A DNA stretch of 52,729 nucleotides, from the NCBI GenBank assembly GCA_001464355.1, contig LNEU01000024.1, positions 113,063-165,791 on the forward strand. The letters are read 5' to 3'. Below are positions 3,783-32,722 of this stretch, in pieces (position 1 is the stretch's first letter; every line of letters begins with the position of its first letter). Made by a program: the position numbers and the translations under genes. The notes beneath the pieces are model-generated. The model did not search any database, was not told the origin of the DNA, and worked only from the letters and a program-made list of their open reading frames with translations. The DNA is from Burkholderiales bacterium Ga0077544 (GTDB taxonomy: Bacteria > Pseudomonadota > Gammaproteobacteria > Burkholderiales > Burkholderiaceae_D).

Positions 3783-3853
3783 GCGTGGTATAGGGCAGGG
3801 ACCGCAACGAACATGGACCGTAATCAGTCTGCAGGAACAACAGAAAGCCCATC

Positions 3854-6800
3854 ATGAACCACATTTATCGCTCGATCTGGAATAGTCGGACTGGCACATT
3901 CACGGCAGTTTCAGAGAGCACCAGAACCTGCGGCAAGCAAGCGTCGGCGGGCGCAAGTGTCATGACGGACGCAGGGTTCGCGTTGAAAGCGCTGGCAGGC
4001 TCGCTGTTGCTGGCATTTGGTGCCAGCAGCTATGCTTTGCCGGTCGACGGCGTAGTTGTGGCTGGCAGCGCTTCTGTCGCCAGCGGCAATGGCAGCATGA
4101 CCATCAATCAGAGCAGCCAGAACGTGGTGCTCAATTGGCAGAGCTTCAATATCGGTGCGGCGGAAACGGTAAATTTCGTGCAGCCCAACAGCAATTCAGT
4201 CGCGCTTAACCGCGTGATCGGTGCCGATCCATCAAGCATACTCGGCAGTCTGTCGGCCAACGGCAAGGTGTTTCTCGTCAATCCGAATGGCATTTTGTTC
4301 GGCAAGGGCGCATCGGTCAACGTTGGCGGGTTGGTCGCATCGACGCTCAATATTTCCGACCGCGACTTCATGGCAGGCAAGTACACGTTTGCTGGTGCGG
4401 GTAGCGGTAACATCCTCAATCAGGGCAGCATCAATGCGGATGGCGGCTATGTCGCAATGCTGGGTGCAAACGTTTCCAATGAAGGCATGATCGTCGCCAG
4501 ACTCGGCAGCGTCGCACTCGCTGCCGGTAACGGCATCACACTCGATATCGCTGGCGACGGTCTGCTGAATGTTGCAATCAACGAAGGCGTGGTGCATGCG
4601 CTGGTCAGTAACGGAGGCATGATTCAAGCAGATGGCGGGCAGGTGCTGCTGAGCGCGCAGGCGGCTGGCAATCTGCTGCAGACCGTGGTCAACAATACCG
4701 GCGTGATTCAGGCCCAAACCATCGAAAACCATAATGGCGTGATCAAACTGCTGGGCGATATGCAAAGCGGGACAGTCAACGTCGGCGGCAAGCTCGATGC
4801 CAGCGCGCCGAATGGCGGCGACGGCGGCTTTATTGAAACCTCCGCTGCTCATGTTCAGGTGAAGGACAGCGCGCGCATCACCACTGCGGCACCGCAAGGT
4901 CTGACCGGCAGTTGGCTGATCGATCCTACCGATTACACGATTGCGGCATCCGGCGGCAACATCACCGGTGCGGCGCTGTCGGCCAATTTGGGTAGCACCG
5001 ACATCATCATCCAGAGCATCTCGGGCGGTAGCGGCACTGCGGGCAATGTCAACGTCAATGATGCCGTGAACTGGTCGGCCCACAAGCTGACCTTGAATGC
5101 GCAAAACAATATCAACATCAACGCCAATCTGAACGCGTCGGCCACCGCTAGCTTGGCGCTGGAATTCGGGCAGAGTGCGGTGGCCGCGAGCAATGCCAGC
5201 AAGGTCACTACCAACAACGGCGCATCCGTCAATTTGCCCGCTGGTACCACCAACTTCACGACCAAACAGGGTTCGAACGGCGTCGTCAAAAACTATACTG
5301 TGATCACCAGCCTCGGCGCGGCAGGCAGTGTTACTACCACCGATCTGCAAGGGATGAATGGCAACACGGCGCTGAACTATGCGTTGGGTGCGAACATCGA
5401 TGCGACAGCGACATCGGGCTGGAACGCAGGCGCGGGTTTCGTGCCGATCGGTACTGATCCTTCGCGCTTCGCTGGCATCTTCGATGGACTGGGTCACACG
5501 GTTTCCGGTCTCTTCATCAATCGAACGGGAAGCAACTTTACAGGCTTGTTCGGCTACACCGCAGCAGGCTCGATGGTTCGCAATGTTGGTTTGATCGGCG
5601 GCAGCGTCGCCAGCAATTTGTGGGGCACTGGCTCACTCGTCGGCGCGCTCGGCGGTACGCTGATCAATAGCTATGCAACCGGTAGCGTTTATGGCTTCCA
5701 GACAGTAGGTGGGTTGGTCGGCGTCATCGACGGCGGTGCCATTGTCGATAGTCACGCAACAGGTAATGTGGTTGGTGGCCCCAATGGCGAGGCAGGCGGG
5801 CTAGTAGGATTGAGTTGGGGGCCGGGTGGTGGAACCGTCAACAACAGTTACGCCACTGGCAATGTGAGCAGCGCCGTCGGTAACGTTGGCGGGCTGATGG
5901 GGATCAACTGGGGCACGGTCACCGGCAGCTATGCAACCGGGACAGTCAACGGTACCGACTACATTGGTGGCCTGATTGGCAATAACAGCAATGGCTCGGT
6001 TGCTAATAGCTACGCCACCGGTGCAGTGAACGGAAACAACCGGGTCGGTGGTCTTGCAGGTAATAATTCCAATAGCATCACCAATAGTTACGCGACCGGC
6101 GCCGTGACCGGCATCGATGGCGTCGGCGGCTTGGCGGGCAGCAATAACGGCACGATTTCCAACAGCTACGCGACCGGCGTTGTAAACGGCCGGAATTCCG
6201 TTGGCGGACTTATCGGGCAGTCAGTTACTGGGGCTGTGACCAACAGTTATTCCGCTAACAGCCAGGTCGCTGGAACGGATTCGGTGGGCGGGCTCGTTGG
6301 CTACAACAACACTACGACGATTAACGATAGTTACTCATCCAGTGCTGTTAGTGGCCAGAGCAGAGTCGGCGGATTGTTCGGCACAACAAATGGCGGCGTT
6401 AATAATAATCGCAACTATGCATCCGGCAACATTATCGGCACCGATTCCGTCGGCGGACTCGTTGGCGAAAATGGTTTCGCCTTTTCTATTTTCAACAGCT
6501 ACGCGACTGGTAATGTCAGCGGGGGCGTCAGAGTGGGTGGCCTGGTGGGCTACAACGGCAATAACGGCAGCATCGCAAACAGTTACTCGAGTGGAGCGGT
6601 CTCCGGCACCACCAGTGTTGGCGGTTTGGTAGGTAGCAATATCCACACTGTGACCAATAGTTTCTGGGATACGCAGACATCCGGCCAGGCGATATCAGCC
6701 GGCGGCATCGGTATGACCACAGCGCAGATGCATACGCAAGCCAATTTCAACTCGGCCACGGGTGCCAACGGCAGCGGGAATCCCGGTTGGGATTTTTCCA

Positions 6801-7855
6801 ATACCTGGATTGGGTACGACGGTCATACATCGCCCTTGCTGCGCTCTTTCATGACGGCTCTGACAGTGACCGCTAACAGTGCCACCAAGACCTATGACGG
6901 ATTGGGCAGCACCGGCGGCAACGGCGTGACGTATTCCACTACACCCAATGGCAATTTGCTCGGCACGGTCAGCTACAGCAGCGGGATTAATGTCGGCAGC
7001 TCCACCATTACGCCGGGCGGTCTCTATTCCAATCAGCAGGGCTATATCATCAGCTACGTCGATGGCGCATTGACGGTGAATAAAGCCGACCTGACACTTG
7101 CCACCAGCAATGTCAGCAAAACCTATGATGGCAGCTTGACGGCAGCGGGCACGGCTACCGTCGCCAGCGGTACGCTGTTCGGTAGCGATGCGCTCAGCGG
7201 CGGTACATTCGCTTTCACCGACAAAAATGCTGGCATCGGCACCAAGACGGTGACGACTACAGGCGTCACCGTCACCGACGGCAATAGTGGCGGCAACTAC
7301 AACGTTACGTACACCGACAATACCAGCAGCACAATTACACCCAAGTCGCTCACAGTTGTCGGAGCAACCGCGCAGAACAAGGTCTATGACGGAACCACGC
7401 TGGCTACCCTCGTCGGCGGCACGCTGGCAGGCTTGATCTCTGGCGATAGCGTGACCTTGATCGAGGCCGGGACATTTGCCACGCCAGAGCCCGGGAATGG
7501 AATCGCAGTTGCGGGAGCGGTCACGCTCGCTGGTGCCTCGGCGGGAAATTATTCAGTAACGCAACCCACCGGCCTCACAGCAAATATCACTGCCGCTGTG
7601 AGCGTAGTTGATTCCGGTCCGCGCAATCAGGATGCCATCGTCAGTGCGGTTTCTTTAGCATCTGCCATTGCCTTGCACGGCATAAGAGTTGAAGCGCCTG
7701 GCTCCACCAAGACATACGACGCGCAGCCGTTCCTTCATTCATCGATCATTTCTACACCGGGCGGATTGGCCGGATTGAACCTTTCCATTACGGGCACTGG
7801 CGTAAAATTACACTCCGGCACGCAACCAAACGATGCGCGAGACGACAAAAACTAA
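3854..7855 (+). CDS. TpsA filamentous-haemagglutinin-like exoprotein with GLUG and YDG repeats
   Basis: Encodes 1333 residues, the likely cargo of the adjacent TpsB. The N-terminus has an extended signal peptide (ESPR: MNHIYRSIWNSRTGTF) followed by a hydrophobic core FALKALAGSLLLAFGAS. The TPS haemagglutination-activity domain spans about residues 60-190 and has the hallmark NPNGILFG near residue 142. Residues ~190-590 are a Gly/Asn/Ala-rich beta-helix-like region. About 13 GLUG units (GGLVG...NSYATG) fill residues ~593-945, and YDG/MBG-type repeats with K-T-Y-D-G cores occur near 1012, 1089 and 1176. A fourth, degenerate KTYDA near 1286 is cut short and the protein ends 48 residues later. 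Expected to be secreted and to act in adhesion or aggregation; the receptor is unknown. There is no CDI-like C-terminal toxin motif (VENN) that I can see. Confidence 0.92.
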   Translation: MNHIYRSIWNSRTGTFTAVSESTRTCGKQASAGASVMTDAGFALKALAGSLLLAFGASSYALPVDGVVVAGSASVASGNGSMTINQSSQNVVLNWQSFNIGAAETVNFVQPNSNSVALNRVIGADPSSILGSLSANGKVFLVNPNGILFGKGASVNVGGLVASTLNISDRDFMAGKYTFAGAGSGNILNQGSINADGGYVAMLGANVSNEGMIVARLGSVALAAGNGITLDIAGDGLLNVAINEGVVHALVSNGGMIQADGGQVLLSAQAAGNLLQTVVNNTGVIQAQTIENHNGVIKLLGDMQSGTVNVGGKLDASAPNGGDGGFIETSAAHVQVKDSARITTAAPQGLTGSWLIDPTDYTIAASGGNITGAALSANLGSTDIIIQSISGGSGTAGNVNVNDAVNWSAHKLTLNAQNNININANLNASATASLALEFGQSAVAASNASKVTTNNGASVNLPAGTTNFTTKQGSNGVVKNYTVITSLGAAGSVTTTDLQGMNGNTALNYALGANIDATATSGWNAGAGFVPIGTDPSRFAGIFDGLGHTVSGLFINRTGSNFTGLFGYTAAGSMVRNVGLIGGSVASNLWGTGSLVGALGGTLINSYATGSVYGFQTVGGLVGVIDGGAIVDSHATGNVVGGPNGEAGGLVGLSWGPGGGTVNNSYATGNVSSAVGNVGGLMGINWGTVTGSYATGTVNGTDYIGGLIGNNSNGSVANSYATGAVNGNNRVGGLAGNNSNSITNSYATGAVTGIDGVGGLAGSNNGTISNSYATGVVNGRNSVGGLIGQSVTGAVTNSYSANSQVAGTDSVGGLVGYNNTTTINDSYSSSAVSGQSRVGGLFGTTNGGVNNNRNYASGNIIGTDSVGGLVGENGFAFSIFNSYATGNVSGGVRVGGLVGYNGNNGSIANSYSSGAVSGTTSVGGLVGSNIHTVTNSFWDTQTSGQAISAGGIGMTTAQMHTQANFNSATGANGSGNPGWDFSNTWIGYDGHTSPLLRSFMTALTVTANSATKTYDGLGSTGGNGVTYSTTPNGNLLGTVSYSSGINVGSSTITPGGLYSNQQGYIISYVDGALTVNKADLTLATSNVSKTYDGSLTAAGTATVASGTLFGSDALSGGTFAFTDKNAGIGTKTVTTTGVTVTDGNSGGNYNVTYTDNTSSTITPKSLTVVGATAQNKVYDGTTLATLVGGTLAGLISGDSVTLIEAGTFATPEPGNGIAVAGAVTLAGASAGNYSVTQPTGLTANITAAVSVVDSGPRNQDAIVSAVSLASAIALHGIRVEAPGSTKTYDAQPFLHSSIISTPGGLAGLNLSITGTGVKLHSGTQPNDARDDKN
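5630..6700 (+). repeat. About 13 tandem GLUG-motif coding repeats inside tpsA
   Basis: Units of roughly 26-30 codons, each V-G-G-L-x-G, then N-S-Y-A-T-G, then a V-x-G turn. DNA copies are clearly diverged in synonymous positions, so this is an old array rather than a fresh expansion. The last unit runs into SFWDTQTSGQ, a sequence commonly seen at the end of GLUG arrays. Confidence 0.85.
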
Positions 7856-11640: not shown

Positions 11641-12951
11641 ATGAATAACAATCAAACAAGCGCATCGAGTATTCAGAGCGCAACAGGTTACAAAAATCGC
11701 TGGATGCAACTCATCATTGGTATTGCCTGTATGGCTTTTATGGCTAACTTGCAATACGGCTGGACGCTGTTCGTCACGCCTATCGACAATGCACATCACT
11801 GGGGTAAAGCGGCAATTCAACTCGCGTTCTCGATCTTTATCGTGACCGAAACATGGTTGGTGCCGATTGAGGGCTACCTGGTTGATAAATTTGGCCCACG
11901 TCCAGTCGTTGCTGTCGGTGCAGTTTGTGCCGGCCTCGGTTGGGTAATGAATAGCTACGCTGATTCTTTGGCGATGCTGTACTTTGCCGCAGTTGTGTCA
12001 GGCGTTGGCGCCGGTTGCGTGTATGGTACTTGCGTTGGTAACGCTTTGAAATTGTTCCCGGACCGTCGTGGTTTGGCAGCTGGTTTGACTGCAGCCGGCT
12101 TCGGTGCAGGTGCTGCGATCACCGTGATACCTATCGCGAACATGATTCAGACTGCCGGTTACGAAAAAACATTTTTTACATTTGGCATTATCCAAGGCGT
12201 GTGTATTCTCGTTTTGTCTATGTTGTTAATCAAACCTGTGGCCCCTAAATCTGCATTAGCTAAAGCAGGTTCCGTAGCCAACGTGGATTACACCACCAAG
12301 CAAATGTTGAAAACGCCAGTTTTTTGGGTCTTGTATGTGATGTTCGTGTTGGTTGCTTCGGGTGGTTTGATGGCGACTGCGCAAATCGGTCCGATTGCGA
12401 ATGACTTTGGTATCGCGGCCTTGCCCATGACCTTGTTCGGTGCAACCTTGCCGTTGTTGACGATGACCTTGTCTATCGACAACGTTGCCAACGGTTTGAC
12501 ACGTCCTCTGTGCGGTTTTGTCTCGGACAAAATCGGCCGCGAAAACACCATGTTTATTGTTTTCATCGGGGAGGGTTTGGCTTTGCTGGGCTTGATGAAA
12601 TACGGCCATAATCCATATGCATTCATGGCATTTGCTGCAATGGTGTTCCTGTGCTGGGGTGAGATTTTCTCGATTTTCCCTGCGATCTGCGCCGATACTT
12701 TCGGTAGCAAATTTGCTGCAGGTAACTCGGGCACGCTTTACACCGCAAAAGGTACGGCAGCATTGTTGGTGCCATTGGCATCGGTATTGTCTGCAGGAGG
12801 TGGCTGGAGCCGTGTGTTTGTAGTTGCTGCGATCATCACGATTTTGGCTGGCTTGTCCGCAAAACTGATCCTGTCGCCTATGCGCAAACGCATGCATGCA
12901 AATCATGCCGTGCACGCTGCACGTGCAGAGGAGGTGCGTGTTACAGCGTAA
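11641..12951 (+). CDS. OFA-family MFS transporter (oxalate/formate antiporter type)
   Basis: Encodes 436 residues with 12 predicted membrane helices. The N-terminal segment MANLQYGWTLFVTPI and the loop VEGYLVDKFGPRPVV-like sequence (IEGYLVDKFGPRPV) are hallmarks of the OxlT/OFA group, as is GTCVGNALKLFPDRRGLAAGLTAAGFG in the central part. OxlT of Oxalobacter exchanges oxalate for formate; other members carry other monocarboxylates, and no oxalate decarboxylase or formyl-CoA transferase is near, so the substrate is open. Ribosome site GAGAGG lies about 10 bases before the ATG. The gene is monocistronic, with a terminator 77 bases after the stop. Confidence 0.9.
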   Translation: MNNNQTSASSIQSATGYKNRWMQLIIGIACMAFMANLQYGWTLFVTPIDNAHHWGKAAIQLAFSIFIVTETWLVPIEGYLVDKFGPRPVVAVGAVCAGLGWVMNSYADSLAMLYFAAVVSGVGAGCVYGTCVGNALKLFPDRRGLAAGLTAAGFGAGAAITVIPIANMIQTAGYEKTFFTFGIIQGVCILVLSMLLIKPVAPKSALAKAGSVANVDYTTKQMLKTPVFWVLYVMFVLVASGGLMATAQIGPIANDFGIAALPMTLFGATLPLLTMTLSIDNVANGLTRPLCGFVSDKIGRENTMFIVFIGEGLALLGLMKYGHNPYAFMAFAAMVFLCWGEIFSIFPAICADTFGSKFAAGNSGTLYTAKGTAALLVPLASVLSAGGGWSRVFVVAAIITILAGLSAKLILSPMRKRMHANHAVHAARAEEVRVTA

Positions 12952-18056: not shown

Positions 18057-18416
18057 GTGAACCTCGAAAATTACTTCCCCGTTTTACTCTTTATCCTGGT
18101 TGGCATCGGCGTCGGTGTTGCACCGCAGATATTGGGTCGCATTCTTGGTCCGCATAATCCGGACGATCAAAAACTTTCCCCGTACGAGTGTGGTTTCGAG
18201 GCATTTGAAGATGCGCGCATGAAATTCGATGTGCGTTACTATCTCGTCGCCATTTTGTTCATTCTGTTTGATCTTGAGGTGGCATTCCTTGTCCCTTGGG
18301 CAGCTGCGATGCGCGAAGTAGGTATGCCGGGATTTTGGGCAATGATGATTTTCCTTGGAATTCTGACCATCGGTCTGGTATTCGAATGGAAAAAAGGCGC
18401 GCTGGATTGGGAGTAA
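18057..18416 (+). CDS. nuoA: NADH-quinone oxidoreductase subunit A
   Basis: Encodes 119 residues from GTG 18057; no ATG is available upstream in frame. Three membrane helices are visible, with the conserved loop [24 protein letters not shown] between helices 1 and 2 and the acidic [12 protein letters not shown]-type stretch ([14 protein letters not shown]) in helix 2. NuoA sits in the membrane arm next to NuoH and NuoJ near the quinone cavity. First gene of the fourteen-gene complex I operon; the next start is only 3 bases after its stop. Confidence 0.97.
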
Positions 18417-18419
18417 GTC

Positions 18420-18896
18420 ATGGCAATTGAAGGCGTATTGAATGAAGGCTTCGTTACGACGACAGCCGATAAACTGATCAACTGGACACGTACCGGTTCG
18501 ATGTGGCCGATGACCTTTGGTCTCGCATGCTGCGCAGTAGAAATGATGCACGCAGGTGCTTCGCGTTACGATCTGGATCGTTTTGGTGTGGTCTTCCGTC
18601 CGTCGCCACGTCAATCTGATGTGATGATTGTTGCGGGTACCTTGTGCAACAAGATGGCGCCAGCTTTACGTAAAGTCTACGATCAAATGGCTGAGCCGCG
18701 TTGGGTTATCTCGATGGGCTCCTGTGCTAATGGTGGTGGTTATTACCATTACTCTTACTCTGTTGTGCGCGGTTGTGATCGCATTGTTCCTGTCGATGTC
18801 TATGTTCCTGGTTGTCCTCCAACCGCTGAAGCATTGTTGTACGGAATCATGCAGTTGCAAAACAAGATCCGTCGTACCAATACGATCGCTCGCTAA
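18420..18896 (+). CDS. nuoB: NADH-quinone oxidoreductase subunit B
   Basis: Encodes 158 residues. It has the four cysteines that ligate cluster N2: the [12 protein letters not shown] pair, [20 protein letters not shown], and [15 protein letters not shown]2 passes electrons to ubiquinone at the NuoB/NuoD/NuoH interface. It also carries the conserved [19 protein letters not shown]. Peripheral-arm protein on the cytoplasmic side. Confidence 0.98.
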
Positions 18897-18913
18897 GAGA
18901 CTGAATAGTTAAT

Positions 18914-19510
18914 ATGACGATCAAACTTGAACTCCTCGAAGCTGCTCTGCGCAATGCGCTGGGCGAACAGCTTCAAAGTCTTTCGCTGGCTTTGGGCGAA
19001 GCTACCATTGTTGTTAAGTCGCATGACTATTTGTCCGCAATGCGCGTGTTGCGTGACCATGCTGATTTGCGTTTTGAAGAATTAATTGATTTGTGCGGCG
19101 TTGATTATTCGACGTACGGCGATGGCGTGTGGGAAGGTCCGCGTTTTGCTGTGGTTTCGCACCTGTTGTCGATCAAGCATAACTGGCGTGTGCGTGTACG
19201 TGTATTCGCCGCTGATGATGAAATGCCTGTCGTTGCATCGATGATCGATATCTGGCCAACGGCCAATTGGTATGAGCGTGAAGCATTCGATTTCTTTGGC
19301 ATTTTGTTCGAGGGTCACAACGATTTGCGCCGCATCCTGACCGACTACGGCTTTATCGGTCACCCATTCCGCAAGGATTTCCCTGTCTCTGGCTATGTTG
19401 AAATGCGCTACGATCCGGAACAAAAACGCGTGATTTATCAACCTGTAACGATCGACCCGCGTGAAAATGTGCCGCGCGTGATTCGTGAAGAAACATACGG
19501 GGTGAAATAA
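18914..19510 (+). CDS. nuoC: NADH-quinone oxidoreductase subunit C (30 kDa)
   Basis: Encodes 198 residues. The 30-kDa signature [29 protein letters not shown] is intact, followed by [19 protein letters not shown]. NuoC is a peripheral-arm scaffold subunit that joins NuoD; here they are separate genes, not the fused NuoCD of enterobacteria. Its TAA shares one base with the nuoD ATG, so translation is coupled. Confidence 0.98.
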
Positions 19511-20763
19511 TGGCTGAGATCAAGAACTACACGCTCAACTTTGGTCCGCAACATCCTGCGGCGCATGGTGTTTTGCGCCTCGTGTTGGAGCTGGATGGCG
19601 AAGTGATTCAACGTGCCGATCCGCATATCGGATTGTTGCATCGCGCGACTGAAAAACTCGCAGAGCAAAAAACCTATCTGCAATCTGTTCCTTACATGGA
19701 TCGCCTCGACTACGTGTCGATGATGTGTAACGAGCATGCTTATGTCATGTCGATTGAGAAAATGCTCAATATCGAAGTGCCATTGCGTGCGCAATACATT
19801 CGCGTGATGTTCGATGAAATCACTCGCATCCTGAATCACCTGATGTGGCTGGGCGCGCATGCACTCGACGTTGGCGCAATGGGCGTGTTCCTGTATGCGT
19901 TCCGCGAACGTGAAGATTTGATGGATTGCTACGAAGCCGTTTCTGGCGCGCGTATGCATGCTGCTTACTATCGTCCGGGTGGTGTTTATCGCGATTTGCC
20001 GGATGCAATGCCGCAGCACAAGGCATCGATCATTCGCAATGCAAAAGCCATCAGCCAATTGAATGAAAACCGTCAAGGTTCCCTGCTCGATTTTATTGAA
20101 GATTTTACCAATCGCTTCCCGACCTATGTCGACGAATACGAAACCTTGTTGACTGATAACCGTATCTGGAAACAACGTCTGGTTGGTATAGGTGTGGTGT
20201 CGCCTGAGCGTGCGATGGCGATGGGCTTTACCGGCGCGATGTTGCGCGGTTCAGGCATCGAATGGGATTTGCGCAAGAAGCAACCGTACGAAGTGTACGA
20301 CCTGATGGATTTTGATATTCCGGTTGGTACAAATGGCGATTGCTACGATCGTTATCTGGTGCGCGTCGAAGAGATGCGTCAATCGAATCGTATTATCAAG
20401 CAGTGCGTCGAATGGCTGCGTAACAATCCGGGTCCTGTGATGACGAACAACCACAAGGTTGCACCGCCATCACGCGTGGGAATGAAGTCGAACATGGAAG
20501 ATTTGATTCATCACTTCAAGCTGTTCACTGAAGGCTTCCACGTGCCGGCAGGTGAGGCGTATGCAGCTGTCGAACATCCAAAGGGCGAGTTCGGTGTCTA
20601 TCTGATTTCCGATGGCGCAAATAAACCTTACCGTATGAAGATTCGTGCGCCGGGCTTCCCGCACTTGCAAGGTTTGGACGAGATGGCCAAGGGTCACATG
20701 ATTGCCGATGCAGTAACCATCATCGGTACGCAAGATATTGTGTTTGGTGAAATTGACCGCTAA
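19510..20763 (+). CDS. nuoD: NADH-quinone oxidoreductase subunit D (49 kDa)
   Basis: Encodes 417 residues, the standard length. It contains the quinone-pocket loop [22 protein letters not shown], the HRATEKLAE segment, and the C-terminal [25 protein letters not shown]. NuoD descends from the large subunit of NiFe hydrogenases but has lost the metal-ligating cysteines; it forms the headgroup site for ubiquinone next to cluster N2. No lesions seen. Confidence 0.98.
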
Positions 20764-20790
20764 TCGCGGATCAATAATTGAGGCATAGAC

Positions 20791-21270
20791 ATGCTGTTAT
20801 CAGAGCAAACGTATAAAAGAATCGACCGCGAGGTCGCCAAGTTCCCTCCAGAGCAAAAGCAGTCTGCGGTCATGGCTGCATTGCAGATTGCTCAGGATGA
20901 AACTCGTTGGCTGCCGCCCGAAGTGATGCAAGATGTTGCTGACTATCTGGGTATGCCTGCGATCGCCGTGCAAGAGGTTGCGACCTTCTACAATATGTAC
21001 AACACCAAGCCGGTCGGCAAGTTCAAGATCTCGGTGTGTACAAATTTGCCGTGCCAATTGTCCGGCGGCGAGAAGGCTGCGCATTACCTGAAACACAAGC
21101 TCGGTATTGATTATCGTGAAACGACTGCGGATGATCAATTCACCTTGGTTGAAGGCGAATGCATGGGCGCTTGTGGTGATGCCCCTGTCATGTTGGTCAA
21201 CAACAAACGCATGTGCAGCTTTATGTCTGATGAAAAAATCGACGCGCTGGTAGAGGAATTGAAGAAATGA
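20791..21270 (+). CDS. nuoE: NADH-quinone oxidoreductase subunit E (24 kDa)
   Basis: Encodes 159 residues. The thioredoxin-like 2Fe-2S fold is shown by [12 protein letters not shown] and [17 protein letters not shown], giving the four cysteines of cluster N1a. Typical N-terminal helix [20 protein letters not shown]. Works with NuoF in the NADH-oxidising module. Its stop overlaps the nuoF start in an ATGA. Confidence 0.97.
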
Positions 21271-22562
21271 CCAGTCTGCATAATCGTCATATCAAGCCAT
21301 TGATTTTGGCTGGCCTCACCGGTGATAACTGGGGTCTGGAAGATTACGTCAAGCGCGGTGGCTATGCATCGCTGAAACGCATTTTGAGCGAAGGCATGAC
21401 TTCTGAGCAGGTGATTGCCGAAGTCAAGGCATCTACTTTGCGCGGCCGTGGTGGTGCAGGTTTTCCTAGCGGTTTGAAGTGGAGCTTCATGCCGAAGAAT
21501 TTCGCAGGCCAAAAGTATCTGATTTGTAATTCTGATGAGGGCGAGCCAGGTACATTCAAGGATCGCGATATTCTTCGCTACAACCCGCACGCAGTGATTG
21601 AGGGTATGACCATCGCCGCTTATGCGATGGGTGTTAGCGTAGGTTACAACTATATTCATGGCGAAATTTTCGCTGAGTATGACCGCTTTGAAGAAGCACT
21701 TGAACAAGCCCGCGCAGCAGGTTTCCTGGGTGATCGCATTCTGGGTTCGGACCACAGCTTCCAGTTGCACGCGTTCCATGGTTTTGGCGCATATATCTGT
21801 GGCGAAGAAACTGCTTTGCTGGAATCGATCGAAGGTAAAAAGGGGCAGCCGCGCTTCAAGCCGCCTTTCCCAGCGAGCTATGGTTTGTACGGCAAGCCAA
21901 CCACCATTAACAATACCGAGACATTTGCGGCTGTGCCTTTCATCTTTCAGGTGGGTGCAGAAGCTTACGCTGGTCTCGGCAAGCCAAACAACGGTGGCAC
22001 CAAGATTTTCTCGGTGTCTGGCGATGTAGAGAATCCAGGTAATTACGAAATTCCGCTTGGCACTCCATTTGCAGAATTGTTGAAGCTTGCCGGTGGTATG
22101 CGCGGTGGCAAAAAACTCAAGGCAGTCATTCCTGGTGGTTCGTCAGTGCCAGTCGTCAAGGGTGACCTGATGATGGCGACTGATATGGATTACGATTCGG
22201 TCGCGAAAGCCGGTTCGATGCTGGGTTCAGGTGCTGTCATCGTGATGGATGAAACCCGTTGCATGGTCAAGGCGCTACTGCGATTGTCTTACTTCTATTT
22301 TGAAGAGTCCTGCGGTCAGTGCACGCCGTGCCGTGAAGGTACCGGTTGGTTGTATCGCATGGTGCATCGTATAGAGAATGGTCAAGGTCGTCCTGAAGAC
22401 CTGGACATGCTGAATTCGATTGCGGACAATATTCAGGGCCGCACAATTTGCGCACTGGGCGATGCCGCAGCGATGCCAGTACGCGCGATGATTCAGCAGT
22501 TCCGCGAAGAGTTTGAATATCACATTGAGCATAAGCATTGCTTGGTGCCCGCTTACATTTAG
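21267..22562 (+). CDS. nuoF: NADH-quinone oxidoreductase subunit F (51 kDa, FMN/NADH site)
   Basis: Encodes 431 residues. NADH/FMN-binding glycine-rich stretches are [14 protein letters not shown] and [16 protein letters not shown], followed by [23 protein letters not shown]. The 4Fe-4S cluster N3 motif [12 protein letters not shown] with a distal Cys in [13 protein letters not shown] is complete. It takes hydride from NADH to FMN and hands electrons to the cluster chain in NuoE/NuoG. Confidence 0.98.
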
Positions 22563-22623
22563 CCGATCACTTGGTTAGCGTAATAAACCTAGTGAGAACA
22601 CTGAAGTCAACAAAAGCAAAGCC

Positions 22624-25011
22624 ATGGTTGAAATCGAAATAGACGGTAAAAAAGTAGAAGTGCAAGAAGGCAGCACTGTAATGGATGCGGCCAATAAAGT
22701 CGGCACCTACATCCCGCACTTCTGCTATCACAAAAAATTGTCCATCGCGGCGAACTGCCGTATGTGTCTGGTTGAGGTTGAAAAAGCACCTAAGCCATTG
22801 CCAGCCTGCGCGACGCCAGTTGCGCAAGGCATGATCGTTCGCTCGAATAGCGAAAAAGCGGTCAAGGCGCAAAAAGGCGTGATGGAGTTCCTGTTAATTA
22901 ACCATCCGCTTGATTGCCCGATTTGCGATCAAGGCGGTGAGTGTCAGTTGCAAGATCTGGCAGTCGGATACGGTGATTCTTCTTCGCGTTACGAAGAAGA
23001 AAAACGTGTAGTTGCACCGAAAGATGTCGGCCCGCTGATTTCAATGAAAGAAATGAGCCGTTGTATCCACTGCACACGTTGCGTACGTTTCGGCCAGGAA
23101 GTTGCCGGCGTGATGGAATTTGGCATGCTGGGTCGTGGCGAGCACGCAGAAATCACATCCTTTGTTGGTAAAACTGTTGACTCCGAATTGTCGGGCAACA
23201 TGATCGATCTGTGCCCGGTTGGCGCACTGACATCCAAGCCATTCCGTTACAGCGCTCGTACCTGGGAATTGTCGCGTCGCAAATCGGTGAGTCCACATGA
23301 TGGTCTGGGTGCAAACCTGACCGTTCAAGTGAAGGCTGGCAAAGTCATGCGCGTGCTGCCGCTGGAAAACGATCAAGTCAACGAATGCTGGATCTCGGAT
23401 AAAGATCGTTTCGCTTACGAAGGTTTGAACAGCGAAGATCGTCTGACGACTCCAATGATCAAGCAAGACGGAAAATGGCAAGAGGCTGATTGGCAAACTG
23501 CGCTGGAATATGTCGCGCATGGTTTGCGTAACATCAAGCACGAACACGGTGCTGATGCGATCGCTGCAGTAGCGACCCCAAGTTCGACACTGGAAGAATT
23601 GAACCTGTTGCAAAAGCTCGTACGCGGCATGGGTTCGAACAATGTGGATTTCCGCCTGCGTCAAGCTGATGCAGCACTGGACGCTTCGGTCACACCGTGG
23701 TTGGGTATGTCGATCAATGAATTCGCGGCGTTGAAACGCGCATTCGTAATCGGTTCCTTCCTGCGTAAAGATCATCCATTGCTGGCTGCGCGTCTGCGTC
23801 AAGCTGTCAAGCAAGGTGCAAGCGTCAGCATCTTGCACGCAACAGACGACGATCTGTTGATGCCGGTTGCAAACAAAATGATCAAAGCGCCATCCGATTG
23901 GTTGGCAGCATTGTCTGAAGTTGTCGCAGCGGTTGCACAAGCTAAAGGCGTTGCAGCTCCAGCGGGCTTCGACAATATTCAAGCGTCGGCAGAAGCAAAA
24001 CAAATCGCGGCTAGCATGTTGTCCGGCGAACCAAAAGCAGTCTTGCTCGGTAACGCGGTCTTACAACATCCGCAAGCAGCGCAATTGCACGCTGCAGCAC
24101 AATGGATCGCGCAAAACACAGATGCAAAATTCGGTTTCCTGACCGAAGCGGCAAACAGTGTTGGCGGTTATCTGGCTGGTGCAAATGGTGTTGCTGCTGC
24201 GCAGATCTTCGCGCAACCACGTAAAGCATTCTTGCTGTTGAACGCAGAACCAGAATTGGATGCGTACAACCCGCAAGCTGCACGCCGCGCTCTGGATCAG
24301 GCTGAAATGGTTGTCGTCATGTCGCCATACAAACACGGCATGGATTTCGCCGATGTATTGTTGCCGATTGCACCGTTCTCGGAAACATCCGGCACCTTCG
24401 TCAATTGCGAAGGTCGTGCACAAAGCTTCAACGGCACTGTCAAGCCACTGGGCGATACACGTCCGGCATGGAAAGTTCTGCGCGTGTTAGGTAACTTGGC
24501 TGGCTTGCAAGGTTTTGAATACGAAACATCGGAAGCGATTCGTAACGAAATCCTTGGCGTTAATGCTCCAGCCGACGCGAATCTGACATCACGTTTGAAC
24601 AACATCAGCAAAGCAGCGCCACAAGCGGCGGTTGCAGCGCCATCGTTGTCCTTGGAGCGTGTTGCTGACGTATCGATTTATTCAACCGATGCCATCGTAC
24701 GTCGTGCTCCAGCGTTGCAAGAAACTACCGATGCAGCTGCCCCTAAAGCGTGGTTGTCGGCTGATTTGGCTGCCAAGCTGGGTGTCGCTGCCGGCGATCA
24801 AGTCAAAGTAAAACAAGGTGAGGGTAGTGCGTTGCTGGTTGCAGCGATTGCTACCAACTTGCCAGTGAATGTGGTGCGCGTTGCTGCCGGTCGTCAAGAG
24901 ACAGCTGGTTTGGGCGCGATGTTTGGTTCTATCAGCGTGGATTGGCATCCATCCACGCAACGGGTCAATCGTTCCTCGGCTATTACTGGCCGCTGGTGTG
25001 GAATCTGGTAA
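22624..25011 (+). CDS. nuoG: NADH-quinone oxidoreductase subunit G, with an abnormal C-terminal tail
   Basis: Encodes 795 residues. Cluster ligands are intact: [20 protein letters not shown] and PACATPV (2Fe-2S N1b), [18 protein letters not shown] (N5), and [10 protein letters not shown] (N4). A molybdopterin-oxidoreductase-like domain follows. The conserved end of the protein is expected soon after [10 protein letters not shown] (around 24936), but the frame runs on for about 25 residues in a sequence that overlaps nuoH by 70 bases. All other nuo junctions here have gaps or overlaps of at most 4 bases. I infer the original stop codon has been lost; see findings. Confidence 0.9.
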
Positions 25012-25980
25012 AAATTATTGCGGTTGTTGCGCCACTGATGGGTGCGGTTGCGTACCTGACATTGTGGGAACGTAAGGTCATCGGCTGGATGCACGTCCGT
25101 CATGGCCCTAACCGCACGGGTCCTGCTGGTTTGTTGCAACCGATCGCCGATGGCGTGAAGCTCTTGTTGAAAGAGATTGTTGTTCCGGCAAAGTCGAGCA
25201 AGGCGTTGTTCTTGATCGCTCCTGTCATGACCATCATGCCAGCCTTGGCTGCATGGGCGGTGATTCCATTTGGACCAGACGCTGCATTGGCAAACGTCAA
25301 CGCAGGTTTGCTGTTCGTGATGGCAATTACTTCGCTGGAAGTCTATGGTGTGATCGTGGCAGGTTGGGCATCCAACTCCAAGTATGCGTTCCTCGGCGCG
25401 ATGCGTGCTTCGGCGCAAATGATTTCATATGAAATCGCGATGGGCTTTATCAGGCAGTTTGAATTTGTCTGAAATCGTAGCGCAGCAAACTACGGGTAAT
25501 GGTGCCGACATGGGCCTGACCTTCCTGTCGTGGAACTGGTTGCCGCTGTTGCCGATGTTCGTCATCTACATCATCTCCGGTACGGCTGAATTGAATCGCC
25601 ATCCGTTTGACGTGGTTGAAGGCGAATCCGAGATCGTTGCTGGTCACATGGTTGAATATTCGGGTATGTCATTCGCGATGTTCTTCCTGGCTGAATACGC
25701 CAATATGTGGCTGATTTCGATCATGGCAACGCTGATGTTCCTGGGCGGCTGGTCATCACCTATTGATATGGCTCCGTTCACATGGATTCCAGGCTGGATC
25801 TGGCTCGGTGCGAAGACATGGTTCGTTGTGACTCTGTTCATCTGGTTCCGTGCATCGTTTCCACGCTATCGCTACGATCAAATCATGCGTTTGGGTTGGA
25901 AAGTATTCATTCCATTGACTTTGGTTTATCTGTTGATCGTCGCGATCTGGATGAAAACCTCGTGGAATATCTGGAATTAA
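24942..25980 (+). pseudogene. nuoH: nuoH (complex I quinone-channel subunit), frameshifted in this sequence
   Basis: Two frames together make one NuoH. The first (24942-25472, TTG start, 176 residues) covers the N-terminal helices with [23 protein letters not shown] and the conserved [19 protein letters not shown]. It goes off frame after SYEIAMGF and stops at 25470. The second picks up at 25453 with GSLNLSEIV and continues through [34 protein letters not shown] and [18 protein letters not shown] to 25980. Family members have about nine residues between these points; here four bases remain, so about 23 bases are missing, removing half a helix as well as the frame. Adding 23 bases would give 353 residues, the family's usual length. 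An in-frame ATG at 25429 could start a separate C-terminal piece, but it would lack the first five helices. Confidence 0.85.
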
Positions 25981-26012
25981 TGCAGCAAGGCTGAGCAAAG
26001 AGGGAAGCCAAG

Positions 26013-26501
26013 ATGGAAGCAATTAAGGATTTTTTCGGTAGTTTGATGTTGCGTGAACTGCTCAAGGGCATGGCTCTGACAGGGCGCTATATGTTTGCGC
26101 GCAAAATTACTGTGCAGTTCCCGGAAGAGAAGACACCGCAGTCGCCACGTTTCCGCGGTTTGCACGCATTGCGTCGCTATCCGAATGGCGAAGAGCGTTG
26201 CATTGCCTGCAAACTGTGTGAAGCAGTCTGCCCGGCAATGGCAATCACGATTGAGTCTGATCAGCGTGATGACGGTACACGTCGTACTACACGTTACGAC
26301 ATCGATTTGACCAAGTGCATTTTCTGTGGATTCTGCGAAGAATCCTGCCCGGTGGATTCGATTGTTGAAACACATATTTTCGAATATCACGGTGAAAAAC
26401 GCGGCGACCTGTACTACACGAAAGAAATGTTGCTCGCCGTTGGTGATCGCTACGAATCTGAAATTGCAGCTGCACGTACCGCCGACGCGGCCTATCGTTG
26501 A
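26013..26501 (+). CDS. nuoI: NADH-quinone oxidoreductase subunit I
   Basis: Encodes 162 residues. Two 4Fe-4S motifs, [12 protein letters not shown] and [12 protein letters not shown], bind clusters N6a and N6b, which pass electrons towards N2 in NuoB. The N-terminal amphipathic part docks it on the membrane arm. GAGGGAAGCC before the ATG is a good ribosome site. Intact, in contrast to nuoH just upstream. Confidence 0.98.
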
Positions 26502-26539
26502 TTTAACAGTATTGGCAGTCGCATTAGGCTTACTTTTGC

Positions 26540-26572
26540 GCTGACTTTTTGCTGACTTTTTGCTGATTTTTG
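26540..26572. repeat. 11-bp tandem repeat in the nuoI-nuoJ gap
   Basis: GCTGACTTTTT occurs at 26540-26550 and 26551-26561, and as a variant GCTGATTTTTG at 26562-26572. The array ends 7 bases before the nuoJ ATG, where a ribosome-binding site would be expected; none is visible. Confidence 0.85.
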
Positions 26573-26579
26573 ACTGCTT

Positions 26580-27215
26580 ATGGAATTTACAACTGTATTG
26601 TTTTACGTGTTCTCAGCGATTCTGATTTTCGCTGCCATACGCGTCATCACTGATTCGAATCCGGTTCATGCCGCATTGTTTCTCGTGCTGGCCTTTTGTA
26701 CCGCAGCTGGCTTGTGGATGCTGCTCAAAGCCGAGTTCCTCTCCATCGTGCTGGTGCTGGTGTATGTCGGCGCAGTGATGGTGCTCTTCCTGTTCGTTGT
26801 GATGATGGTGGACATCAAGCTCAGCAATTTGCGCGAAGGCTTCTGGGGCTATTTGCCATTGGCCGCGACAATCGGTGTAGTGATCGTGCTGGAAATGGCA
26901 GCAGTGTTGTTCCGCGGTTTCTGGAAGTCGCATACCCAGGTACCGGAAGGTGCTGCGATGATCGGCAACACCAAGGAATTGGGCAAACTGATCTATACCG
27001 ACTATCTGTATGCGTTTGAAATCGCTGCGTTGATCTTGTTGGTTGGTATGGTTGCTGCAGTTGCATTGACCATGCGCAAGCGTAAAGACAGCAAGTATTT
27101 CTCGCCTGGCGATGCAGTTAAAGTCAAATCGGGCGATCGTTTGCGCATCGTGAAGATGAAGGCTGTTGCACGCGAAGATCAAACACCAGCTGCTCCTGCA
27201 GCAGAACAAAAATAA
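26580..27215 (+). CDS. nuoJ: NADH-quinone oxidoreductase subunit J
   Basis: Encodes 211 residues with five membrane helices. Conserved parts are [19 protein letters not shown] and the helix with [22 protein letters not shown], which forms part of the E-channel and the pi-bulge helix of TM3. The C-terminal ~45 residues are basic and poorly conserved. There is no Shine-Dalgarno before the ATG (T-rich tandem repeat instead), so translation may depend on coupling from nuoI across a 78-base gap. Confidence 0.96.
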
Positions 27216-27225
27216 GGGGAGTGTT

Positions 27226-27534
27226 GTGGAGTTATCGCTCGTACATTACCTGATTCTCGGCGCGATCCTGTTCGCGATTTCGATAGTCGGTATTTTTCTG
27301 AATCGTAAAAACATCATCATCTTGCTGATGGCGATCGAATTGATGCTGTTGGCTGTGAATATGAATTTTGTCGCGTTCTCCTATTTCCTGGGTGACGCAG
27401 CAGGCCAAATTTTTGTTTTCTTCATCTTGACGGTAGCCGCTGCTGAAGCTGCAATTGGTCTTGCCATTCTGGTTTCCATGTTCCGTGCACTGGATACCAT
27501 CAATGTCGAAGATCTTGACAGCCTCAAAGGCTAA
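27226..27534 (+). CDS. nuoK: NADH-quinone oxidoreductase subunit K
   Basis: Encodes 102 residues from GTG 27226, chosen because it follows an AAGGGGAG ribosome site and gives the exact family length; the frame is open further upstream within the end of nuoJ. Three helices with the conserved membrane glutamates in [16 protein letters not shown] and [14 protein letters not shown]. These residues belong to the proton path next to NuoJ and NuoN. Confidence 0.96.
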
Positions 27535-27562
27535 TTCCGAACAATAACGATAAGGTTCACTC

Positions 27563-29671
27563 ATGGCGGGGCAACTTAACCCTAACCTCTTGCTGATCGT
27601 ACCGCTGGCACCACTTGCTGGCTCCATGATCGCAGGTCTGTTTGGTACAAAATTTTTCGGTAATATCATTGGTCGCAAGACGTCGCATACTGTGACGATA
27701 CTTGGCGTGCTGATCGCTTTCATCCTGTCCTTGCACACGATGTCGCTTGTGCTCGATGGCGCCACATTCAATGAAAATTTGTATACGTGGATGACGGTTG
27801 CCGGCATCAAGCTTGAGGTTGGCTTTCTGGTCGACAGCCTGACTGCGATGATGATGTGCGTCGTGACCTTCGTGTCTCTGATGGTGCACATCTATACAAT
27901 CGGCTACATGAAGGACGACGAAGGCTATAACCGCTTCTTCTCGTACATTTCACTGTTTACGTTTGCGATGTTGATGCTCGTTATGAGTAACAACTTCCTG
28001 CAACTGTTCTTCGGTTGGGAAGCAGTGGGCCTGGTGTCGTATCTGTTGATCGGTTTCTGGTACACCAAGCCGACCGCGATTTTCGCGAACATGAAAGCAT
28101 TCCTGGTCAACCGCGTTGGTGACTTTGGTTTCATTCTCGGTATTGGTTTGTTGCTGGCTTACGCTGGTTCGATGGACTACGCAGAAGTCTTCGCGAAGAA
28201 AGAACAACTCGCGACTTTGACCTTGCCTGGTACTGACTGGATGTTGATCACCGTTGCCTGTATCTGCCTGTTTATCGGTGCGATGGGTAAATCGGCTCAG
28301 TTCCCGTTGCACGTCTGGTTGCCGGATTCGATGGAAGGTCCTACACCGATTTCAGCACTGATTCACGCGGCAACGATGGTGACCGCAGGTATCTTCATGG
28401 TGGCACGTATGTCGCCACTGTTCGAATTGTCGGATACGGCCTTGTCCTTCATCCTGATCATCGGTTCGATCACGGCGTTGTTCATGGGCTTCCTGGGTAT
28501 CATCCAGAACGATATCAAGCGCGTGGTTGCTTACTCGACGCTGTCGCAGCTTGGTTACATGACGGTTGCGCTCGGTGCATCTGCGTATTCGGTTGCCGTA
28601 TTCCATCTGATGACACATGCATTCTTCAAGGCTTTGCTGTTCCTTGCTGCAGGTTCGGTCATCATCGGCATGCATCACGATCAAGACATCCGCAACATGG
28701 GTGGCCTGCGTAAATACATGAAGATCACGTGGATCACATCGCTACTGGGCTCGCTGGCACTGATCGGTACGCCATTGTTCTCGGGCTTCTATTCAAAAGA
28801 CAGCATCATTGAAGCAGTGCACGCGACACATATAACTGGCGCAGGCTTTGCCAACTTTGCAGTGCTGGCTGGTGTATTCGTTACAGCGTTCTATTCCTTC
28901 CGTATGTACTTCCTGGTATTCCACGGTGAAGAGCGTTTCGGCAAAGCACATGCACACCACGATGATCATGCACACGCTAAAGTTGCGGATCATCACGATG
29001 CTCACTCGCATGATGCACATGATGCGCACGGCCACGACGACGATCATGGCCATGATGAACATCACGGTCTGGCTCCAGGTCAGAAGCCGCACGAGTCGCC
29101 ATGGGTAGTGACCTTGCCGCTGATTCTGTTGGCAATTCCCTCAGTCATCATTGGTTACTTTGCAATCGAACCTATGTTGCACGGCGATTTCTTCAAGGGT
29201 GTGATCTTTGTTGATCCAAAACATGGCGGCATGGATGAGCTGAGCGAAATTTTCCATGGTGCAATGGCGATGGCGCTCCACGGCTTGCAAACAGCACCGT
29301 TCTGGCTTGCAGTAGGTGGCGTTGCTGCGGCGTACTACTGTTACTTGGTCAATCCGCGCGTACCTGCATGGTTCTATAAGAATTTCCGTGCTATCCACAC
29401 GCTGCTGGATAACAAGTACTACATGGACAAGTTCAACGACTTTTTCTGGGCAGGCGGCGCACGTTTGTTGGGCGGTGGTTTGTCACGCGTCGGCGACAAG
29501 ACCCTGATTGATGGATTGATTGTGAACGGTAGTGCAAAAGTTGTCGGATGGTTCTCACGCATCGTTCGCACCTTTCAGACCGGTTACATTTATCACTACG
29601 CATTTGTCATGATTCTCGGCGTGCTGGGTTTCCTGATTTATTTCTTGCCGTTCCCATCGTTCGCCCAATAA
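27563..29671 (+). CDS. nuoL: NADH-quinone oxidoreductase subunit L, with a histidine-rich loop
   Basis: Encodes 702 residues. Antiporter-like domain with the proton-path residues in FFGWEAVGLVSYLLIGFW, AMGKSAQFPLHVWLPDSMEGPTP and the H-rich channel LMTHAFFKALLFLAAGS. The C-terminal part carries the long lateral helix that braces the membrane arm. Residues about 463-501 form a loop with 16 His and 10 Asp in 39 residues, not part of the antiporter core. Such loops are seen in some betaproteobacterial NuoL proteins; they may bind metal ions, but this is unproven. Confidence 0.97.
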   Translation: MAGQLNPNLLLIVPLAPLAGSMIAGLFGTKFFGNIIGRKTSHTVTILGVLIAFILSLHTMSLVLDGATFNENLYTWMTVAGIKLEVGFLVDSLTAMMMCVVTFVSLMVHIYTIGYMKDDEGYNRFFSYISLFTFAMLMLVMSNNFLQLFFGWEAVGLVSYLLIGFWYTKPTAIFANMKAFLVNRVGDFGFILGIGLLLAYAGSMDYAEVFAKKEQLATLTLPGTDWMLITVACICLFIGAMGKSAQFPLHVWLPDSMEGPTPISALIHAATMVTAGIFMVARMSPLFELSDTALSFILIIGSITALFMGFLGIIQNDIKRVVAYSTLSQLGYMTVALGASAYSVAVFHLMTHAFFKALLFLAAGSVIIGMHHDQDIRNMGGLRKYMKITWITSLLGSLALIGTPLFSGFYSKDSIIEAVHATHITGAGFANFAVLAGVFVTAFYSFRMYFLVFHGEERFGKAHAHHDDHAHAKVADHHDAHSHDAHDAHGHDDDHGHDEHHGLAPGQKPHESPWVVTLPLILLAIPSVIIGYFAIEPMLHGDFFKGVIFVDPKHGGMDELSEIFHGAMAMALHGLQTAPFWLAVGGVAAAYYCYLVNPRVPAWFYKNFRAIHTLLDNKYYMDKFNDFFWAGGARLLGGGLSRVGDKTLIDGLIVNGSAKVVGWFSRIVRTFQTGYIYHYAFVMILGVLGFLIYFLPFPSFAQ

Positions 29672-29698
29672 GTTAGCGAAGTAAAGCAAATAAAAATC

Positions 29699-31189
29699 AT
29701 GATGCAGTCAACATTTCCCCTTTTAAGTCTCGCGATCTGGCTCCCAGTCGCGTTCGGTATCTTCGTTATTGCCTTTGGTCGTGACGATAATCCAAACGTT
29801 GTGCGTACCGTATCGCTGGTTGGCGCAATTGTCAGTTTCCTGGCGACCTTGCCATTGGTTTCTCAATTCGACAATGCTGCGCATGGCATGCAGTTCGTTG
29901 AAAAATTCAAGTGGATTGATATTTTCAATATCAACTATTCGCTTGGCGTTGATGGACTGTCGATGTGGTTTGTCGTCCTGACTGCCTTCATTACGATCTT
30001 TGTCGTGATTGCGGCGTGGGAAGTCATCGAAAAGCGCGTCGCCCAGTACATGGGTGCATTCCTGATTCTGTCGGGTCTGATGATTGGTGTGTTCTGCGCA
30101 CTTGATGGTTTGCTGTTCTATGTATTCTTTGAATCGACACTGATTCCTATGTTTATTATTATCGGTGTCTGGGGCGGTGCAAATCGCGTCTACGCATCGA
30201 TCAAGTTCTTCCTGTACACATTCTTCGGCTCCTTGTTAATGCTGGTGGCCTTGCTGTACCTGTATTTCAAGTCTGGTCACAGCTTCGACATTCTGGCCTG
30301 GCATACATTGCCATTGCCTATGGATGCACAGATCCTGATCTTCTTGGCATTCTTGATGGCGTTTGCGGTCAAAGTTCCAATGTGGCCTGTGCATACATGG
30401 TTGCCTGATGCTCACGTTGAAGCGCCTACCGGTGGTTCAGTCGTGCTGGCGGCAATCATGTTGAAACTGGGTGCTTACGGCTTCCTGCGTTTCTCGTTGC
30501 CGATCACACCAGATGCCAGTCATTACCTGTCCGGCTTCATGATTACCTTGTCGCTGATCGCAGTGATTTACATCGGTCTGGTTGCTCTGGTTCAAACCGA
30601 TATGAAAAAGCTGGTGGCTTATTCATCGATCGCACACATGGGCTTCGTTACGCTCGGCTTCTTCATGTTTAATGACATGGCTGTGCAGGGCGGTATCGTA
30701 CAAATGATTTCGCACGGCTTTGTTTCTGGCGCAATGTTCCTGTGTATCGGTGTTTTGTATGACCGTATGCACACTCGTAACATCGCTGACTACGGCGGAG
30801 TTGTGAACAAGATGCCTAAGTTCGCTGCCTTCTTTATCCTGTTTTCGATGGCTAACGCCGGCTTGCCAGCAACATCCGGTTTCGTCGGCGAGTTCATGGT
30901 GATTCTCGGTGCCGTCAAATTCAATTTCTGGATCGGTATGCTGGCTGCAACTGCGCTGATTCTTGGCGCTGCTTATTCCCTGTGGCTGGCCAAACGCGTG
31001 ATTTTCGGTGAAGTTACCAATCATCACGTCGCGGAACTGACAGATATTAACAAGCGTGAATTCCTGATGTTGGGCGTGTTGGCGATTGCTGTGTTGGCGA
31101 TGGGTCTGTATCCAGCACCTTTCACCGATGCGATGCAAACTTCGGTTACCGACTTGCTGAAGCACGTCTCGATTTCGAAACTTAATTAA
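29699..31189 (+). CDS. nuoM: NADH-quinone oxidoreductase subunit M
   Basis: Encodes 496 residues and 14 helices of a Mrp-antiporter-like proton channel. Key elements are FFESTLIPMFIIIGVWGG (conserved Glu in TM5), FLMAFAVKVPMWPVHTWLPDAHVEAPTGGSV, and QTDMKKLVAYSSIAHMGFV. Two adjacent ATG codons (29699, 29702) can start it. Intact. Confidence 0.97.
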   Translation: MMQSTFPLLSLAIWLPVAFGIFVIAFGRDDNPNVVRTVSLVGAIVSFLATLPLVSQFDNAAHGMQFVEKFKWIDIFNINYSLGVDGLSMWFVVLTAFITIFVVIAAWEVIEKRVAQYMGAFLILSGLMIGVFCALDGLLFYVFFESTLIPMFIIIGVWGGANRVYASIKFFLYTFFGSLLMLVALLYLYFKSGHSFDILAWHTLPLPMDAQILIFLAFLMAFAVKVPMWPVHTWLPDAHVEAPTGGSVVLAAIMLKLGAYGFLRFSLPITPDASHYLSGFMITLSLIAVIYIGLVALVQTDMKKLVAYSSIAHMGFVTLGFFMFNDMAVQGGIVQMISHGFVSGAMFLCIGVLYDRMHTRNIADYGGVVNKMPKFAAFFILFSMANAGLPATSGFVGEFMVILGAVKFNFWIGMLAATALILGAAYSLWLAKRVIFGEVTNHHVAELTDINKREFLMLGVLAIAVLAMGLYPAPFTDAMQTSVTDLLKHVSISKLN

Positions 31190-31237
31190 TAAACGGCTCC
31201 GCAATCGCGTAACTGAACGCACACTAACTGCGACAAA

Positions 31238-32722
31238 ATGAATAATTTGAATCTGATATCCGTCCTTCCTGAAATATTCCTGGCAATTGCAATCTGCGCA
31301 ATTTTGCTGATTGACTTGTTTCTGTCGGATGCGAAACGCTACATCACTTATGTATTGTCGATTGCGGCATTGATAGGCAGCGCCGCACTCAGTCTGTGTG
31401 ACTTCAATACCGGTGCAACTGTCTACGGCTTTGGCAATATGGTCGTGTCTGACCCCATGTCCAGCTTGTTGAAGATCTGTACCTGTATCGCCGTTGCACT
31501 GACGTTGATCTATTCGCGCCAGTATCTGGAACAACGCGAAATGGTAAACGGCCGTCTGGGCGGTGAGTTCTATATTCTGTCCTTGTTTACTGTGCTGGGT
31601 CAGATGGTCATGATTTCGGCCAACAACTTCCTGATCATTTACCTCGGTCTGGAAATGATGTCACTGGCCTTGTATGCATTGGTTGCTTTCCGTCGCGAAA
31701 ACACCGTAGCGATCGAAGCCGCGATGAAATACTTCGTACTGGGCGCTCTGGCTTCAGGTTTCCTGCTGTACGGTATCTCGATGTTGTACGGTGCGACCGG
31801 TTCGCTCGACATGACTGAGGTTGCACGCGTTATTTCTACCGGTGCTGTCAACAAACCGGTATTGATTTTCGGTCTGGTGTTTGTGGTTTCTGGTCTGGCT
31901 TTCAAACTGGGTGCAGTTCCGTTTCACATGTGGGTACCTGACGTTTATCAGGGTGCGCCGACTGCCGTGACCCTGATGTTGGGCGGTGCTCCTAAGCTTG
32001 CAGCCTTCGCAATCACGATTCGCTTGTTGGTAGAGACATTGCCAGCGTTGGTTATCGATTGGCAGCAAATGCTGACCATCCTTGCCGTACTGTCTATGGC
32101 GATCGGTAACATTGCCGCAATCGCGCAAACCAATATCAAGCGTATGCTGGCCTATTCGACCATCTCGCAAATCGGTTTCATCTTGCTTGGTTTGTTGTCC
32201 GGTGTCGTGGCGGGTGCTGATGGCTCGACGACCAACGGTTATAGCGCTGCGATGTTCTATGTCATCACTTATGTATTGACCACTCTGGGTATGTTTGGCG
32301 TCATCATGTTGTTGTCACGTGCAGGCTTCGAAGCTGACAACATTGACGACTTCAAAGGCTTGAATCAACGCAGTCCATGGTTTGCGCTGGTCACCCTGAT
32401 GCTGATGTTCTCGCTGGCTGGTGTACCACCAGTGGTTGGTTTCTATGCCAAATTGTCGGTATTGCAGGCAGTGTTGAGCACCGGCCAGATCTGGCTGGCA
32501 GTGATCGCGGTTCTGTTCTCGCTGATTGGCGCGTTCTATTATCTGCGCGTAGTCAAAGTCATGTACTTTGACGAACCTGTCGATAATTCAAAAATTGTCG
32601 CCAGCAAAGATGTAACCGTCGCACTGAGCATCAATGGTGCAGCCTTGTTGGTGCTGGGCTTGGTACCTGGCCCTTTGATGACAGCATGCGCTGCTGCTAT
32701 CGTCAAAACGCTGGCTTCCTGA
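31238..32722 (+). CDS. nuoN: NADH-quinone oxidoreductase subunit N
   Basis: Encodes 494 residues, third antiporter-like subunit. [40 protein letters not shown] and [22 protein letters not shown] are the conserved proton-path segments. Last subunit gene of the complex I operon. Confidence 0.97.

Follow-up and report, generated by a model that had tools for sequence, protein, structure and literature searches.

Paired short gaps around one block of nuoH in a Burkholderiales genome assembly

The window analysed here, a stretch of 52,729 nucleotides from Burkholderiales bacterium Ga0077544, contains the genes nuoA-nuoN of respiratory complex I, complete and in order at 18057-32722 in the list of open reading frames (ORFs), and the recorded sequence is broken twice within them, by gaps of 21 and 23 bases at the two edges of a single 507-base block that starts at the junction of nuoG and nuoH. 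The best reading is a local assembly or consensus error in nuoG-nuoH, to which we give about an even chance. The near-equal size of the gaps at both edges of one block suggests a single cause, and the substitutions accumulated in nuoH indicate that the lesions are either very young or not real.

Reading frames of nuoG and nuoH as recorded

All genes lie on the forward strand. nuoA-nuoF (18057-22562) and nuoI-nuoN (26013-32722) are open throughout in the ORF list, the names of genes other than nuoG and nuoH being assigned from gene order and sequence. nuoG, with the Pfam domains Molybdopterin, Fer2_4 and Fer4_Nqo3, occupies 22624-25011 as an ORF of 795 codons, compared with 775 in the closest relative, G010. 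Its match to NuoG of G010 extends to residue 773 and stops where the junction 24941/24942 lies; after these ~773 native codons it continues for 22 out-of-frame codons within nuoH, its own stop codon being lost. Alignment with 12 other genomes of the same genus places the first gap at this junction, with 21 bases absent relative to 11 of the relatives and 22 relative to the remaining one. The counterpart in the relatives comprises the nuoG stop, the nuoH ATG overlapping or following this stop, and the sequence upstream of it; the start codon and the sequence that precedes it after nuoG are gone in the window and kept in all 12 aligned relatives. As the nuoG stop is removed, nuoG reads on into nuoH and nuoH is left without a proper start, the first remaining candidate being TTG at 24942.

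The block that follows (24942-25448) encodes the N-terminal part of NuoH and matches positions 2-146 of the profile PF00146, and the C-terminal part, in another frame at 25453-25980, matches positions 153-298. The 5' frame runs from TTG 24942 to 25472 and follows NuoH through SYEIAMGF, and the 3' frame is NuoH-like from 25453 to the stop at 25980 in an ORF that opens at ATG 25429. Only 4 bases (25449-25452) lie between the two frames, and all 12 other genomes of the genus have 23 more at this place. This second gap, placed by alignment at 25447/25448 within the lesion at 25447-25452, shifts the frame, removes residues and is private to the window. The two pieces share 99% and 98% protein identity with NuoH of G010, a split match that by sequence similarity lies far above the chance level, and one continuous NuoH chain across the full profile is not encoded by the recorded sequence.

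The preliminary description of this DNA, made from the sequence alone, had recognised the two-frame course of NuoH (24942-25472, then from 25453 onward) and the loss of 23 bases, both of which are confirmed by the ORFs, the two profile pieces and the comparison with each of the 12 relatives. It had counted a single lesion, overlooking the 21-base gap at 24941/24942, and had taken the other 13 nuo genes to be intact; 12 of them are indeed open, the exception being nuoG. That first observation was right yet incomplete, and the loss of complex I drawn from it is unproven: the sequence as recorded cannot encode a normal NuoH, whereas an established loss is unsupported in view of the paired blunt gaps and the unrelaxed selection.

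The residues lost at the second gap correspond approximately to 163-171 of E. coli NuoH (aligned, with the range counted by eye), beginning six residues past Glu157, and hydrophobicity and the known fold suggest that they form a transmembrane helix. Glu157 is reported to be invariant, with the cavity from the quinone site ending beside it (PMC8357420), and in E. coli assembly can reportedly be abolished by one substitution in NuoH (PMC9696053). If the recorded sequence is correct, complex I could not form in its normal shape. A working but unusual NuoH is scarcely credible, either as two fragments that assemble or as a protein about eight residues short made by a +1 frameshift. A second ORF does open at ATG 25429, and a +1 shift across 25449-25452 would rejoin the frames, but the residues are lost soon after the invariant Glu157, beside the quinone-side cavity, the start of nuoH is gone as well, and the lesion is common to none of the 12 relatives.

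Relatives and the remainder of the assembly

Searching with 24700-25700 of the window returned matches spanning both lesion sites in all 13 genomes of the genus, its own included. At least one uninterrupted full-length NuoH was found in 55 of the 59 other genomes searched, among them the 12 of the same genus; the other four had no NuoH match (two genomes), a match cut at contig ends (one) or a weak match only (one). The comparison with related nuoH genes proposed in the preliminary description found nuoH intact in 12 of 12 same-genus genomes, and the gap is not natural to the relatives. A second assembly of this species to compare with was not found. By its named relatives the genome is assigned to the Herminiimonas/Oxalicibacterium group, and no published account of a broken nuoH in Herminiimonas was met in a literature search that was not exhaustive.

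An intact alternative contig or a second nuoH copy was rejected, as no such match occurs in the strain's own genome; the NuoH search found no second copy there, and a search for further copies at the DNA level was negative too. A foreign or chimeric origin of 24942-25448 was likewise rejected, as its DNA identity of 90.7% to G010 is inside the range of the operon. None of the 18-mers of 24900-25500 is repeated elsewhere in the 1.25 Mb searched.

The quality of the assembly, listed with a completeness of 100, was assessed against G010. For contigs C24 and C18, 534 gap events were counted in 282,108 aligned columns, and 15 of these have clean flanks and a net size of at least 10 bases. Among the 15 are the two nuoG/nuoH lesions; the others leave the frame of every conserved ORF of at least 120 codons unchanged. 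On the same contigs, a first count found 225 of 233 conserved ORFs at full length. A wider survey covered 1,245,791 of 3,248,153 bases (38% of the genome), with conserved ORFs defined as non-overlapping, of at least 120 codons and with a best piece of at least 75% identity. Here 745 of 772 were full length in one piece, no Ns were present, 22 were covered in part and five were flagged as divided between two frames; of these five, nuoH alone has two pieces that both reach at least 98% identity. The pieces of the four other flagged ORFs lie at 73-94% identity, and one of them, FliK-like by eye (C24:95438-96782), has an extra N-terminal part apparently ahead of the true start. In the reverse control, which compared the strain's own ORFs with G010, 751 of 782 were full length and five were flagged. 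nuoH is the sole clear high-identity gene split between frames among the 772 ORFs surveyed, and genome-wide decay or a generally poor assembly is unsupported in the 1,245,791 bases.

Selection, junctions and the origin of the gaps

Substitutions separating the window from G010 were polarised against the remaining 11 relatives. Codons gapped in G010 were left out, and a change lacking a clear majority was counted as unassigned. In nuoH (342 codons in the two pieces), 0 nonsynonymous and 22 synonymous changes fall on the window branch and 1 and 20 on the G010 branch, with 2 and 24 unassigned. For the whole nuo operon, the corresponding numbers are 54 and 387, 83 and 293, and 43 and 369. With a neutral nonsynonymous to synonymous ratio of 2.68, for which a transition weight of 3 was assumed, a nuoH relaxed along the whole branch would be expected to carry ~59 nonsynonymous changes, compared with 0 observed, and the relaxed share of the window branch since G010 comes to less than ~5%. 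From the 0:22 substitutions it follows that the lesions would fall within roughly the last 5% of the branch. An established pseudogene, with complex I lost long ago in the lineage, is consequently very improbable. Two inactivating lesions and the presence of an alternative NADH dehydrogenase would be in keeping with it, but the raised nonsynonymous rate expected of such a gene is absent from nuoH on the window branch, no relaxation is seen in the operon either, and 12 other subunit genes are open.

The alternative dehydrogenase is an uninterrupted Ndh homologue (G000:C23:161920-163224) that aligns with positions 6-434 of E. coli Ndh at 49% identity. It was found with E. coli Ndh as the query, the NDH2_C profile PF22366 being uninformative since the E. 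coli control itself gave no match. The preliminary description had suggested ndh or nqr as alternatives elsewhere in the genome; the former was found, whereas NqrA had no match in the strain's own genome. With such a homologue, a real complex I null is plausible and would be survivable. Comparable full-length Ndh matches occur in all 10 relatives of the same search, and since relatives with an intact nuo operon also have Ndh, the homologue does not indicate that the strain has adapted to losing complex I.

Both joins are nearly blunt, with a microhomology of 0-1 base when judged against the missing segments of the 12 relatives, which serve as a proxy for the bases lost by the strain itself. 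Ku had no match in the strain's own genome, and a signature of slippage or end-joining, that is, short end repeats or Ku, is absent at both lesions. Within the genus, Ku was found in G006, G007 and G008 (L256, L257), that is, in 3 of the 11 genomes searched, or 3 of 10 relatives. Hairpins are an unconvincing cause: for stretches of ~60-80 bases the folding values, which carry no shuffle control, were -10.4 in G010 and -11.0 in the window at site 1, and -9.6 and -8.8, respectively, at site 2. A scan of the nuo operon returned 14 promoter sites, where 16.8 were expected, and 20 terminator sites, where 19.1 were expected, and thus no signal. In a plasmid collection, 49 records matched at 60-80% identity, each over less than 80% of the query.

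An assembly or consensus error would proceed by the joining of the block 24942-25448 to both neighbours, with 21 and 23 bases dropped at its edges; such a technical join would leave the living organism with an ordinary, intact nuoG-nuoH. The technical join is favoured because it would explain both the pairing of the gaps and the unrelaxed selection without two rapid null mutations. Near-blunt joins unlike those of typical replication slippage, the lack of a Ku match, the full constraint, the 12 open nuo genes of the window and the intact genes of all 12 relatives are consistent with it. Counting against it, the surveyed assembly is otherwise clean, the lesion region is non-repetitive and the divergence of the block is normal, and clear breaks of the sort expected of an error were not found elsewhere in the 38% of the assembly surveyed. 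Overlap-based assemblers do not usually produce blunt joins lacking overlap. Because of the clean surveyed assembly and these atypical joins, the error is put no higher than an even chance, and a fresh real null remains a serious contender that falls somewhat short of even.

In the latter case, the sequenced clone would have lost complex I very recently, perhaps while it was being isolated or stored, and NADH would be oxidised by the non-pumping Ndh. The 21-base deletion would uncouple nuoH from nuoG and remove its start, and the 23-base deletion would shift the frame; both might have arisen in a single clustered event, or the consensus might have merged two null alleles present in a mixed culture. 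Besides the uninterrupted Ndh homologue and the otherwise clean surveyed assembly, such a null would accord with the nuo mutations, including a nuoH point mutation, reported from amikacin-resistant E. coli (PMC7057998), and with the raised persistence ascribed to nuo mutations (PMC8795404). These E. coli mutants resemble the present case in that complex I genes are changed in otherwise healthy strains. They differ from it in that a nuoH point mutation is described in the former report and two deletions in one gene are recorded here, and in that the mutants of the latter are, as described there, not fully without complex I function. Moreover, one lesion would suffice, and two near-blunt ones 507 bases apart are hard to gain quickly; no Ku was found, there is no comparable damage in the part surveyed, and the constraint confines the lesions to less than ~5% of the branch since G010. 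The fuller scenario of a free-living bacterium caught at the first step of complex I loss, in which one Ku-free event made two clustered near-blunt deletions while the operon is still under full selection and life proceeds on Ndh alone, is unlikely. Damage to nuoH as an evolved feature is not supported.

For the favoured assembly error there is precedent, as spurious pseudogenes made by assembly have been documented (Cooley and Wright 2024, PMC11017572). As in that account, a conserved gene is broken in one assembly while its relatives are intact and selection is not relaxed; unlike there, where frameshifts and internal stops in general are described, the present case consists of paired ~20-base blunt gaps around one block. 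Even an assembly listed at completeness 100 can contain a core respiratory gene that is broken; it is the second gap together with the substitution test that separates a real loss from a lesion that is fresh or false. Should the lesions be real, the genome would be unfit to serve as a positive reference for complex I, and the strain would represent a natural variant with Ndh only.

Other loci in the window

At 2100-7855, an Omp85-type outer membrane protein (a weak match, below the cut-off) precedes a protein of 1333 aa whose N-terminal domain is of the filamentous haemagglutinin type, and the two look like a two-partner secretion pair. A tyrosine recombinase-like ORF, with XerA/XerD matches far under the cut-off, is located at 51659-52714 after pheS-pheT at the end of contig C24, and may mark an integrated element where the contig breaks. 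The ORF at 11641-12951 is a strong match to oxalate/formate antiporters, with 625.6 bits against a cut-off of 335.
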